From an uncultured Chloroflexota bacterium (lineage in GTDB: Bacteria; Chloroflexota; Dehalococcoidia; Lucifugimonadales; CAJXCD01): a stretch of 64,000 nt of DNA. Numbering within the stretch: position 1 is the first letter of the stretch; each line of letters opens with the position of its first letter. The notes beneath the pieces were generated by a model. It made no database searches, was not told the origin of the DNA, and was given only the letters and a program-made list of their open reading frames with translations. This document shows, in pieces, positions 5,767-49,369 of this stretch. A program made the translations under genes and the position numbers. The DNA is taken from assembly GCA_913051545.1 (NCBI GenBank), contig CAJXCD010000001.1:362863-426862 (forward strand), in the 5' to 3' direction.

Positions 5767-5857
5767 TGGCGGAGAGGGTGGGATTTGAACCCACGATACC
5801 CCATAAGAGTATACTGGTTTTCGAGACCAGCGCCTTAAGCCGCTCGGCCACCTCTCC
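5767..5857 (-). tRNA. tRNA-Ser(CGA), CCA encoded
   Basis: Acceptor GGAGAGG/CCTCTCC, D-arm GCCGAGCGGCTTAAGGC, anticodon arm CTGGT-CTCGAAA-ACCAG, T-arm GTGGGTTCAAATCCCAC. Confidence 0.95.
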
Positions 5858-38140: not shown

Positions 38141-38230
38141 GGAGGGATGGCCGAGCGGCTTAAGGCGCCGGTCTTGAAAACCGGTATACGTGCAAGCGTA
38201 TCGTGGGTTCGAATCCCACTCCCTCCGCCA
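38141..38230 (+). tRNA. tRNA-Ser(TGA), CCA encoded
   Basis: ggagggatggccgagcggcttaaggcgccggtcttgaaaaccgg...gtgggttcgaatcccactccctccgcca; anticodon loop CTTGAAA. Confidence 0.96.
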
Positions 38231-43572: not shown

Positions 43573-44847
43573 ATGAATATAACAGAAATACAGGCTAAAA
43601 CAGATGCTGAGCTAGCTGATTTAGCTAAAGGGATGGGTATTTTAGAAGATGGCGTTGTGCTTAGGCGTCAGGATTTAATAAATCGAGTAATCAGAACTCA
43701 ATCTGAACAGAATGGGAGTCTTGTAGCTGGCGGTATATTGTCTATCACTGGTGATGGTTATGGTTTTCTACGTTCCACTGGTAGTGCAGATAGATCAGGT
43801 GACGTTTACGTTTCACAGTCACAAATCAGACGGTTTGGGCTGAGAAGCGGAGACCAGTTGTCCGGCCAGGTAAGGCCACCTAAGGATGGGGAACGGTACT
43901 TTGGATTGGTGAGAGTGGATTCGGTGAATGATCTTGACCCTGATCTATCTAAAGACAGGCCTCATTTCGAACGATTGACCCCTATATTTCCACAAGACAT
44001 GATTAAAATGGAGACGGTGAAAACGGAACTGTCTAATAGAATCATTGATTTGATTTCGCCAGTTGGTAGAGGTCAGCGTGGAATGATAGTAGCCCCACCA
44101 AAGGCTGGGAAAACCACTTTACTGAAGCAGATTGCCAATGGGATTACTGCAAATGCTCCTGATATTCACCTCATGGTGGCTCTTATTGGTGAGAGACCTG
44201 AAGAAGTGACGGATATGATGAGGTCAGTTCGTGGTGAAGTTTTCAGCTCCACTTTCGATGAACCGGTTGAAGATCACTGCAAAGTTGCAGAGTTGGCATT
44301 GGAAAGGGCAAAGCGTCAGGTAGAGGCAGGACGTGACGTGGTGATATTACTGGATAGTCTTACGCGCCTTACGAGGGCTTACAATCTATCTGTTCCTACG
44401 AGCGGCCGAACCTTGTCTGGAGGAATAGATCCAGTTGCTCTTTATCCTCCCAAGAAATTTTTTGGTGCGGCTCGGAATGCAGAAGACGGAGGCAGTCTTA
44501 CAATACTAGCAGCTTGTCTTGTAGAAACCGGGAGCCGGATGGACGATGTGATATATGAAGAATTTAAGGGTACGGGAAACATGGAGGTTCATCTGGACCG
44601 TAAGTTGGCAGAACGGAGACTTTATCCTGCCATAGACATATCCCGTAGCGGAACCAGGCGAGAGGAATTACTCCTTGATGAGGAAACGCTCCGCCAAGTT
44701 TGGCTTCTTCGCAGGATGGTCAGCATGGTTGCTACAGATTCCATTAATTCTTCTGAGGCTACTGAAAAAGTTATAGAGCGACTTAGAAACAGTAAGGACA
44801 ACAAGGACTTTTTGGTAAAGCTCAGTAGTCCTGAAAAGGGAGACTAA
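43573..44847 (+). CDS. rho: Transcription termination factor Rho
   Basis: GYGFLRS RNA-binding domain, [70 protein letters not shown]. Confidence 0.98.
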
Positions 44848-44961
44848 TAATATCTAGTCTCTAATTAATTTTTAGTGATGTGTATATATCAAGTATTATA
44901 GATGGAAATTTCGATTATGTGAGCTTTCGTAATAACTGGCAAATTAAGGGTTTGTGAGTTA

Positions 44962-44991
44962 TTGACAATGTATCTGCGGCTAATATATAGT
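44962..44991 (+). promoter_or_regulatory. Predicted sigma-70-type promoter of the 45328 surface-protein gene
   Basis: TTGACA (44962-44967), 18-nt spacer, TATAGT (44986-44991); alternative N16-TATATA. Confidence 0.65.
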
Positions 44992-45000
44992 TTCGCTAGG

Positions 45001-45242
45001 ATCGGTGCGGGAGGACTCGGGAGGGAACCTCACCCATGTTTCAGCCGATTTAGTTGAATCACTATGGTCAGGCAGTTAGGCAGTTCCCTTCACTAAGCAC
45101 GTGTAACTACTTGACAAGCTACGGCTCATAGTGTAAAAATTCTAACGTCTGATTAGATATATCGGCGAGGTTCTGATGGTCATATCTACCGCCCGTAGAA
45201 CGGCGGAAAGGGAATTTGTTCCTGAGATACATATGTCTCAGG
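45001..45242 (+). ncRNA. Candidate structured 5' leader RNA (five consecutive helices)
   Basis: Pairs: ATCGG/CCGAT (45001-45005/45045-45049); CACTATG/CATAGTG (45060-45066/45127-45133) enclosing GTCA/TGAC and AGTTA/TAACT; TAGATAT/ATATCTA (45154-45160/45182-45188); CCGCCcGT-AGA-ACGGCGG (45189-45206); CCTGAGA/TCTCAGG (45221-45227/45236-45242). Confidence 0.5.
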
Positions 45243-45327
45243 GCTTCTCCGTGTCTAAAAGACAATAAATATAGAAATAATCTAAGTTAAGTCTGTTTTA
45301 GGAAACATTTAAGTAGGGGGTTAGGCA

Positions 45328-48129
45328 GTGAAAAAGGTAGCCACCATAACGCCGAAGATTCTTATAGCGGTGTTGCTGATCGCGACCGTTGGTCTCTATG
45401 GTTCATCCGGGGTAGTCGAAGGACTGGCCGAGGATGGAGTAGAGTGGACCGACTCCTCGGGTACAGCGATAACGCACGCGAAACCGTCTGCGGACGAAGT
45501 AGTGTTCTACATACAGGACGCTGACCTGGGTATGACAAAATCTGGAACCCGAGTGTTCGGTACTCTATCGAGCGCCGCAGCAGCCGGTACCAGTTTCGTT
45601 ATACCTGCGGCAACTATCGGGGGTGCAGCGGCTGGTACCACAACAGGTAGCAGTCTGGGCACTTACGATACTACTACTCCAGCAGATACTCCTCTAAGTG
45701 CATGGCCTACGGCAACGATAGGCAGCGCTGGGGTGTTGGTGACGTCGGCAAATCTAGATACGGGTGCTTTCACAATTGGAAGCATAGCAGCGCAAGGAGC
45801 AGATGTAACTGCTACTTTCTCGTATCACGATGTTGACGTTTATGCCAGTAGTACAGCACAGAGAGCAGAAGTTGTGAGTAGCTCCGACGTAGTCGGTGAG
45901 CCCATAACTATTACAGAGGTAGCAAGTAATTCTACTTCCACAGCTGCTTCCAATTCGAATATATTCAGGGGTACGGTCGTTCTTAGCAGCGACCCAGCAG
46001 ATAATGGCCCCGGTGATGGTAAGGTCTGGGTAGAGGACGGAGACACAGTCACTGTTAACTACCTGAATTCTGACGGTGCTACTATAGCATCAGACACCCT
46101 TACTATAGACGCTGTCGATCCTACTGTTACTGTAGGCCAGCCTTTGACCGGTCTGAAGACCCAGACTCTCAACCCGAGAGTTGAGTTTGATATAACCGAC
46201 GCTGGCTCCGGTATCGACAAGACCACTTTGGTACTCACTATCAATGGTAATGTTGTAACTCCAGCATCTCTTGCTAGTGCGCCAGTGCTTCAGGGTTACA
46301 CAGTCCTGTACGCAAGTGATACCTCTTGGAAGACAGCATACTCAGTCGCAGAATCGACAGAGTTCACCATGAATATCGCTGTTTCGGACGCGGCAGGTAA
46401 CTCTGCTAGTACCGATGTCAAGATAACCATGGACACTACGGTTCCGACGTTTACCGGTGCCACAACTGGTTCTGGTAGGACAACCGTAACTGCTACGTTC
46501 AGTGAAGCTCTCGATAGTACCACTGTTGACGCGGCAGACTTTACAGTTGTTGATGGGACCAAGACATACGCAGTTTCATCTGCAACTTTGAATGCAGATA
46601 CGGCGACTCAGGTTGACATAGTATTAGGCGCAGATCTTGATGCAGATGCGACTCCTACAGTAACTGTTGTCGGTACGATCTCTGATCCTGCTGGCAATTC
46701 AGTAGCTGCTGATTCGTCGCAAGCCGCTCCTGACGGAGTAGCTCCTGCCCTAACTATTAGCATAGACACGGCCTTAGCGACGCTCGCAGATGTAGTGAAG
46801 ACCACTGTAGTGAGCGACGAGAGGCTGGTTTCTGGCGGACTGAAGGTTTCGGTCTTTGGTCCTAACGGGGCACCAGGTAATGGTAGTCTTAGCCAAACCG
46901 CCCCTGTTCCTCTGTCCTCAGAGGGTTCGGTTACGATAGCTGCCGGTGACGGTACTGGACAGTATGGTGTGACCGTTCAGGCTTCCGATGGTACGAACAC
47001 TGCAGATAACCTCACAGACGTAGCAGACGAGGCTCAGACTGCAGTAGCCAGTGTAGTTACCCTGGCTAATGGTCCTATTGGAGACGCAAACTTCGATGGT
47101 AGCCTTAACACCAGTGATATAACTGTTAAGGTCGGTGGTACAGCGGTTACGCTCAGTTCCACAACTACCATAGATGCTTCTGCCAGGACGATTACGTTCG
47201 TTAACGGCGACGTTGCAGCAACTGCAGACGTAACCGTTAGCTACAGTTATGTAGGTACGGACGTGTTCGAAGTGGATCAGACCGCTCCTACGGTAGTCTT
47301 TAATCCTGATGGAGCATCAGCGATACAGGACACTTCACCGTTTATACGTGTGACCTTCACTGATGACGCCTATGTAGGCGACTCTTATAAGGACGTCGCA
47401 CTCTCAACGGCTAGCCATACGCCTCCTGGCGGAACGGCTACAGACATTTTGGCATGGTTCACGGAAAGGACTTCTAGTTCTTACATGTGGGCGGCTTCTG
47501 ACTTAGCTCTTGGAGCACATAGTCTCGCTATTACAGGAACAGACTCAGCAGGTAACGAAGTATCTTCGACCTTGGCTTTCACGATCGAAGAGCGAACCTA
47601 CAGCTTGAGCCTAGAGCCTGGTTGGAACTTGGTATCACTACCTGGATCGCCGTCCCCGTCCGACGTGGCCGATGTATTCAGCGATGCCAGCATATCAACA
47701 GTAATGACCTATGACCCGTCCACTACAGGACTGTGGTCCTTCGTGACTCGAAATGCTGATGGTACCTACTCAGGTGCTATGACTATCGAGGCTCAAAGAG
47801 GTTATTGGATTGAGACTACGGCTCCTGTAACCCAGTCAGTCAAGATTCCTGGTCTAGCGGCCGGTGCGATGTCTCCTCCAGACTCGTATCGACTTGCGGC
47901 AGGTTGGAACTTGGTGGGTATTAATACCTCCGATATAGCAGGTACGACCAGCAGAGATGCTGATGAGTACTTCTCTACACTTGATTGGTCAAGGGCTTAC
48001 ACTTATAACGCTATAAGTAAGTCGTGGGCCAGCGTTGTTCCTGACGCGTCGACCACAGCTGGAGATACCGTAACGGTAGGTAAGGGATACTGGGTATACC
48101 TCAACTCCCGAGGCAACCTAACTCCGTAA
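45328..48129 (+). CDS. Large secreted S-layer/adhesin-like protein with Ig-like repeats
   Basis: Signal peptide MKKVATITPKILIAVLLIATVGLYGSSG; acidic, Thr/Ser/Ala-rich, no Cys seen; Ig-like motif blocks (DTTVPTFTGATTGSGRTTVTATFSEALDSTT); tandem GWNLVSLP / GWNLVGIN C-terminal domains. Confidence 0.8.
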   Translation: MKKVATITPKILIAVLLIATVGLYGSSGVVEGLAEDGVEWTDSSGTAITHAKPSADEVVFYIQDADLGMTKSGTRVFGTLSSAAAAGTSFVIPAATIGGAAAGTTTGSSLGTYDTTTPADTPLSAWPTATIGSAGVLVTSANLDTGAFTIGSIAAQGADVTATFSYHDVDVYASSTAQRAEVVSSSDVVGEPITITEVASNSTSTAASNSNIFRGTVVLSSDPADNGPGDGKVWVEDGDTVTVNYLNSDGATIASDTLTIDAVDPTVTVGQPLTGLKTQTLNPRVEFDITDAGSGIDKTTLVLTINGNVVTPASLASAPVLQGYTVLYASDTSWKTAYSVAESTEFTMNIAVSDAAGNSASTDVKITMDTTVPTFTGATTGSGRTTVTATFSEALDSTTVDAADFTVVDGTKTYAVSSATLNADTATQVDIVLGADLDADATPTVTVVGTISDPAGNSVAADSSQAAPDGVAPALTISIDTALATLADVVKTTVVSDERLVSGGLKVSVFGPNGAPGNGSLSQTAPVPLSSEGSVTIAAGDGTGQYGVTVQASDGTNTADNLTDVADEAQTAVASVVTLANGPIGDANFDGSLNTSDITVKVGGTAVTLSSTTTIDASARTITFVNGDVAATADVTVSYSYVGTDVFEVDQTAPTVVFNPDGASAIQDTSPFIRVTFTDDAYVGDSYKDVALSTASHTPPGGTATDILAWFTERTSSSYMWAASDLALGAHSLAITGTDSAGNEVSSTLAFTIEERTYSLSLEPGWNLVSLPGSPSPSDVADVFSDASISTVMTYDPSTTGLWSFVTRNADGTYSGAMTIEAQRGYWIETTAPVTQSVKIPGLAAGAMSPPDSYRLAAGWNLVGINTSDIAGTTSRDADEYFSTLDWSRAYTYNAISKSWASVVPDASTTAGDTVTVGKGYWVYLNSRGNLTP

Positions 48130-48226: not shown

Positions 48227-49369
48227 ATGTGGTGGTTTGTAACAAGGTTCCTAGTTTTGGGTTATGTATCTATCCTTGCTCTTGGAGTGGGTATAGCGTA
48301 TGCAGATGATGATATTTCTGCTAATCCACCGCCCCTTCCTACCTCTTTTCAGGGAGTTGCTTCTCTATCAGATGGCTCATTTGTTCCGGAGGGGTTCGAA
48401 ATAATTCTTAGGTTTGGTGATCGGCAGTCACTTAGGGTAGATAGATTTGATAACATCAGAGGCCTGGTAGGAGAAGACGGGAAATACAGTCCTCTATTAG
48501 CTGAACCACCCGACGAGTCATATGACGGAAATGAAATTACGTTTTATCTCTCCAGATTAGGAATTGAGGTTCAGGCTGAAGAGGCTTATGTTCTGGATAC
48601 AGATTTAGGTTTTCCTGAAATAAATAAGGATTTTATTCTAACTTTTCCGAATTTACCGCCCCTTCCTACTCCAACTCCAACTCCTACACCTACATCCACG
48701 CCTACACCTACATCCACGCCTGTACCTACATCCACGCCTGCATCAGATGCATCTGTGTTTTCAGGTAACATCACAGTTGCTGGAATGAATGTCCCTGAAA
48801 ACGCCGTTCTTGTGGCTAAGATAGGGGAATATGAAAGTTATCCAGCCTTGATAGAAGGAAACGAATATTCAAGTTTAGTTGTAGCTCCGGGAGATTTCAG
48901 TTTCCTCGGAGAGGAAATCGAGTTCGTTTTAAATGGGATAAAGTCAAATAAAGTGAGTACTTTTGAAAGCGGGACGGTCGTTTCAGGATTTAATCTAATT
49001 TTTGAAGGGTTACCTACTCCCACGCCTGTACCTACATCCACTCCTACTCCTACTGCGACGCCTACTGTTACTCCTATCCCTACGGATACGCCTGTTCCTA
49101 CTCCCACTCCTACACCTATATTCACGCCTACACCTACATATACGCCGCTTCCTGTACCTACCGCTACTGTCGTCCCCACACCGGTACAAGAAAGTTTTGA
49201 TGTAGAAACTCCAACCCCAATCCCAACCCCAACTCCGGTGCCTGATGGAGGTTTTTGTCTATTTTCACCCAATAGACCACTGTCTTCGGGTGTTGGGAAT
49301 CTTATGTTTTTGCTTGCTCCGTTGGGTATGGCAGTAGGAATAAAACAGTATAACCGTAGGAAGAGATAG
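48227..49369 (+). CDS. Cell-surface protein: two related domains separated by Pro/Thr-rich linkers, C-terminal membrane anchor
   Basis: Signal peptide; PTPTPTPTSTPTPTSTP repeats; C-terminus VGNLMFLLAPLGMAVGIKQYNRRKR (TM plus basic tail). Confidence 0.75.
   Translation: MWWFVTRFLVLGYVSILALGVGIAYADDDISANPPPLPTSFQGVASLSDGSFVPEGFEIILRFGDRQSLRVDRFDNIRGLVGEDGKYSPLLAEPPDESYDGNEITFYLSRLGIEVQAEEAYVLDTDLGFPEINKDFILTFPNLPPLPTPTPTPTPTSTPTPTSTPVPTSTPASDASVFSGNITVAGMNVPENAVLVAKIGEYESYPALIEGNEYSSLVVAPGDFSFLGEEIEFVLNGIKSNKVSTFESGTVVSGFNLIFEGLPTPTPVPTSTPTPTATPTVTPIPTDTPVPTPTPTPIFTPTPTYTPLPVPTATVVPTPVQESFDVETPTPIPTPTPVPDGGFCLFSPNRPLSSGVGNLMFLLAPLGMAVGIKQYNRRKR

Follow-up and report, generated by a model that had tools for sequence, protein, structure and literature searches.

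Two promoter sequences and a fast-evolving leader precede a putative S-layer protein gene in a SAR202-type Chloroflexota bacterium

We analyzed the region between rho and a surface-protein gene in a 64,000-nucleotide stretch of DNA (hereafter the window), which belongs to a 1.86-Mb genome assembled in 31 contigs. The window comes from a SAR202-type Chloroflexota bacterium, and relatives with the same surface-protein gene are labelled Chloroflexi, SAR202 cluster or Dehalococcoidia. Both genes and the control elements between them lie on the forward strand. The rho gene (43576-44847; Pfam PF07497, PF00006 and PF07498) has the S-layer-like gene as a neighbour in many of the order's genomes. Because a terminator-like hairpin and T-rich tail (44839-44873), detected by pattern scan and visible in the sequence, overlap the rho stop codon, the surface-protein gene probably forms a separate transcription unit. 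This gene (45328-48129) starts with GTG and encodes a 933-amino-acid Ig-like secreted protein with a Pfam Big_5 domain and an N-terminus that, as judged by eye, is hydrophobic and signal-like. Homologs are present in 144 of 250 genomes of the order, and among the genomes examined in which the gene lies 3' of rho, its start is mostly 290 to 600 nt downstream. The product thus has the features of a secreted, repetitive, Ig-like surface protein and is probably an S-layer subunit, an identity taken from homology and the Ig-like domains only. SAR202 bacteria lack peptidoglycan genes and an S-layer wall has been proposed for them (PMC11994032; PMC10444878); with such a presumed wall, very high expression of the surface protein would be needed. 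Directly downstream of the surface gene, positions 48227-49369 encode a second secreted protein with long TPTPTP/PTPVPT repeats and a membrane-anchor-like C-terminal end. Elsewhere in the window there are three tRNA genes, every one for tRNA-Ser, at 2863-2954 (GGA anticodon), 5767-5857 (CGA), and 38141-38230 (TGA).

The gap between rho and the surface gene (44848-45327) contains two promoter sequences. The upstream one, P1 (44962-44991), is the TTGACA-N18-TATAGT element that the original prediction had placed just after rho; our pattern scan confirmed it with 11 of 12 consensus matches and a predicted start at about 44998, and most homologous gaps have the same element. A relaxed P1 pattern has only two matches in the window's genome, one of them at the surface gene. 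The sole other TTGACA-N17/18-TATARTT (G000:C22:8565-8594; L248) lies 5' of rpsL, and P1 therefore looks like a strong housekeeping promoter. The downstream promoter, P2 (45111-45140), reads TTGACA-N17-TAAAAAT with a TG before the -10 box and has a predicted start at about 45147; it was recognized from the pattern scan, the order-wide pattern and the consensus. The scan itself lists this site with an 18-nt spacer and AAAAAT, for which N17 plus TAAAAAT is the alternative reading. The -10 box of P2 (TAAAAAT/TACAAAT) departs from TATAAT and is less canonical than that of P1. Before the GTG codon, the G-rich ribosome-binding site AGGGGGTTAG (45315-45324) is a member of a conserved AAGGGGGTAGnnAGTG block, which is nearly invariant in a cross-family alignment (A3).

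We then considered these elements across the order. A count of exact TTGACA in 54 gaps between rho and the surface gene gave 95 copies on the coding strand; the opposite strand has 4, and shuffled sequences have 6.3 ± 2.6. At least two copies are present in 39 of the 54 gaps. The gaps are related sequences, so that the counts are not independent. Three misfits (L109, L112, and L113) were excluded here, and promoter positions, among them several of P1, were partly assigned manually. Most homologous gaps combine an upstream TTGACA-N17/18-TATAGT with a downstream cTTGACA whose -10 box is GTGTA[A/C]AAAT or a near variant, and the spacing to the -10 box is mostly 17-18 nt in P1 and P2 alike. P1 and P2 lie 95-220 nt apart (median 142), and P2 precedes the start codon by 123-372 nt (median 211), with the value of 372 coming from a gap with one recognized promoter only. 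A clear P1 or P2 is absent from some gaps, for example L094-L098 and L132. With two -35/-10 pairs at 16-18-nt spacing that are conserved with the gene, the arrangement is that of tandem sigma-70-type promoters. A search of the literature on S-layer promoters of SAR202 or Dehalococcoides returned nothing on this control region. As a separate observation, only two proteins with sigma-70 region 2 were found in the window's genome, encoded about 3 kb apart (G000:C1:136285-139379; L244 and L245); one is a 532-amino-acid protein of the primary type, and the other is a small protein of 201 amino acids followed by a possible membrane partner.

The distribution of P2 was followed with a strict pattern, TTGACA-N13-17-GTGTANAAAT, in 247 genomes of the order. 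This pattern gave 17 matches, whereas the reversed pattern used as a control gave 3, and 15 of the 17 lie 5' of a member of the surface-gene family. In this tally, the contig of L240 ends before the gene and the site follows rho, and the gene start of L228 was placed from a homolog search. The matches include five genomes (G170, G171, G004, G042, and G021) in which the surface gene is away from rho or on a different contig, so that the element tracks the gene and not rho. Within the window's genome, a relaxed P2 pattern has two matches only, one at the surface gene and the other 5' of a transporter permease gene. Beyond the order, in a class-wide sample, matches are few and mostly have an ordinary TATAAAT -10 box, and P2 thus looks order-specific. 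It is conceivable, but in our judgment quite unlikely, that P2 represents a dedicated class of SAR202 wall-protein promoters, in which TTGACA, together with a -10 box that is off-consensus and nearly specific to the gene (GTGTA[A/C]AAAT), would be served by a specialized sigma factor or activator and paired with the housekeeping P1. If such a class existed, wall synthesis would be switchable apart from growth.

The sequence following P1 had been proposed as an undescribed structured RNA driving the S-layer-like gene, with about 330 nt of multi-helix leader and no convincing ORF. There is indeed no ORF of at least 80 amino acids on either strand between the rho stop codon (44847) and the GTG at 45328, the named helix arms are present, and a long leader in front of the S-layer-like gene is supported, with P1 and the layout of rho and the surface gene recurring in dozens of genomes. 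The unusual stability implied by such a structure was not borne out, since the 330-nt fold has a z score of -1.15 (-1.18 in a repeat) and 14 of 100 shuffles were equally stable. Perfect stems of 7 bp or more number four in the leader, and none reaches 8 bp; the expectation from dinucleotide shuffles is 0.99, with as many as four in 5 of 200. The four are AGGGAAC/GTTCCCT (45022-45028/45083-45089), CACTATG (45060-45066/45127-45133), TAGATAT (45154-45160/45182-45188), and CCTGAGA (45221-45227/45236-45242). By domain, the z scores are -0.25 for helix 1, -2.08 for helix 2, and -1.17 for the region of helices 3-5. Chance-level folding (z of +0.66 and +1.03) was obtained for the segment carried only by P1 transcripts (44998-45110), in which helix 1 and the 5' half of helix 2 lie. 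The proximal leader of about 180 nt that would be common to P1 and P2 transcripts (45147-45327) gave z scores of -0.8 to -2.0 depending on boundaries and shuffles, which is not above the coding-sequence control. Locally, only a single hairpin stands out, CCTGAGA...TCTCAGG at 45218-45248 (helix 5; z of -3.96, equalled by 0 of 300 shuffles). As for helix 2, its arms are present but overlap P2, which the original prediction had overlooked: the -35 box includes the TGAC arm, and the -10 box begins right after the CATAGTG arm. Promoter DNA can therefore supply part of what looks to the eye like a series of leader helices.

The covariance models of Rfam 15 produced only chance matches to the leader below the gathering threshold, and none of them was a match even at a relaxed E-value. 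The original prediction had recognized no known riboswitch consensus here. A nucleotide search for leader homologs in 58 same-order genomes returned the window itself only, and a cross-family leader alignment contained 0 consensus pairs, this alignment being poor and the window's genome the only one of its own family among the genomes covered. Representative leaders were not more stable than the coding sequences that follow them (mean z of -1.50 versus -1.81), nor more stable than their own reverse complements. An apparent order-wide excess stability of proximal leaders (mean z of -1.77) was rejected because it failed these coding-sequence and reverse-complement controls. Given no Rfam match, a near-chance fold, no cross-family consensus and a stability not exceeding that of coding sequence, a structured RNA is unsupported in the window.

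In homologous gaps of the order, the segment between P1 and P2 gave more stable folds for the transcribed strand than for the complementary one (mean z of -1.73 versus -0.79, p = 0.0007), a result from 28 related segments and one of three comparisons, which hints at some selection at the RNA level; the window is an exception to this asymmetry, with a z of about +1. In a SAR202-related sister family, f28, the proximal leaders of 11 members (L114, L185-L190, L192, L194, L196, and L197; alignment A2) share 46 conserved pairs, of which 10 have changed on both sides, and 94.5% of cells are paired, as compared with 89.2% in shuffles and 35-50% when the partners were slid. At its outermost helix, which shows no double changes, the 5' end would pair with bases beside the ribosome-binding site. 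Independently of the window, this covarying structure downstream of P2 is a candidate new leader RNA. R1, a covariance model built on its 3' domain, recovered 11 of the 11 members and gave no convincing coding-strand score in leaders outside the group; with filters off, its best score against positions 44900-45400 of the window was 2.8 bits, which is no match. Leaders of another family, f23, also fold well, with z scores of -2.4 to -6.0. The covariation in f28 suggests that the leader RNA may have a role in particular lineages.

How, then, should the leader in the window be understood? That it is a genuine regulatory or mRNA-stabilizing structure peculiar to its lineage, produced for the most part from P1 and extending over the five helices, is unlikely. 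Four perfect stems where about one was expected, the strong hairpin at 45218-45248, the covarying leader in the sister family and the long life of S-layer mRNAs (PMC8056022) would all be consistent with it, but they are set against a whole-leader fold near chance, an unstable P1-P2 part, arms of helix 2 that overlap P2, the failure to find a homologous leader in the 58 same-order genomes, and the sister-family model's lack of a match in the window. We set aside a separate non-coding RNA that would start at P1 and end before the gene as very improbable, because the pattern scan detected nothing terminator-like in the stretch from P1 to the gene and Rfam gives no match. The good conservation of P1 and the better folding of the transcribed P1-P2 strand across the order would accord with such an RNA, whereas this same segment of the window folds no better than chance. 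The chance that the region is a riboswitch or another metabolite-sensing leader seems slimmer still. While a long, helix-bearing leader does lie 5' of the ribosome-binding site, neither an Rfam match at a relaxed E-value nor a consensus structure across families was obtained, and a constitutive wall gene would be an unlikely target of such control.

We consider it probable that the locus is instead a tandem-promoter, high-output control region of a major wall protein, with a fast-evolving and partly structured leader, and not a conserved structured RNA family. The comparisons above directly establish the gene layout, the presence of two promoter sequences that are conserved together with the gene, the conservation of the ribosome-binding site, and the lack of detectable shared RNA structure. 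According to this explanation, the two sigma-70-type promoters would give transcripts with leaders of about 330 nt from P1 and about 180 nt from P2. Since much of the long leader is upstream of P2 or is P2 itself, a start near 45147 and a leader of about 180 nt are probable for many transcripts. Translation would then be strongly driven by the conserved G-rich ribosome-binding site before the GTG codon. Sequence that separates the promoters or follows P2 evolves fast; its ordinary hairpins may stabilize the mRNA or tune translation, and in some lineages the leader RNA has settled into real structures. We infer that both promoters are active and that output is high, and the leader may also affect the half-life of the mRNA. 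As read from the sequence, the conserved function of the region is the initiation of transcription and translation.

The dark ocean holds large numbers of SAR202 bacteria, which are hard to grow. Because they lack peptidoglycan, their wall is probably made of the surface-layer protein, and the promoter pair and ribosome-binding block conserved with the gene for this protein across the order would provide a direct handle on wall making. The conserved promoter/ribosome-binding signature could also serve to find the gene in metagenomes and supplies candidate strong promoters for genetics.

Among the systems with which the locus can be compared, the leader of the sister family f28 likewise lies between P2 and the same gene, but the window has neither its structure nor its sequence. 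In Lactobacillus and Bacillus, slp genes have tandem promoters and a long leader. A strong promoter (PMC6176008) and a stable S-layer mRNA (PMC8056022) have been described for these genera. The likeness to the present locus is one of working: strong promoters and a long leader before the gene for an abundant surface protein. The locus differs in the unusual -10 box of P2, and no homology in sequence or structure to the slp genes is expected. In the cwp cell-wall-protein operon of Bacillus brevis, several tandem promoters and a long leader precede the gene for a major wall protein. Although that operon belongs to an unrelated phylum and the gene in the window has a single start codon, the two share tandem promoters and a long leader ahead of a major wall-protein gene.
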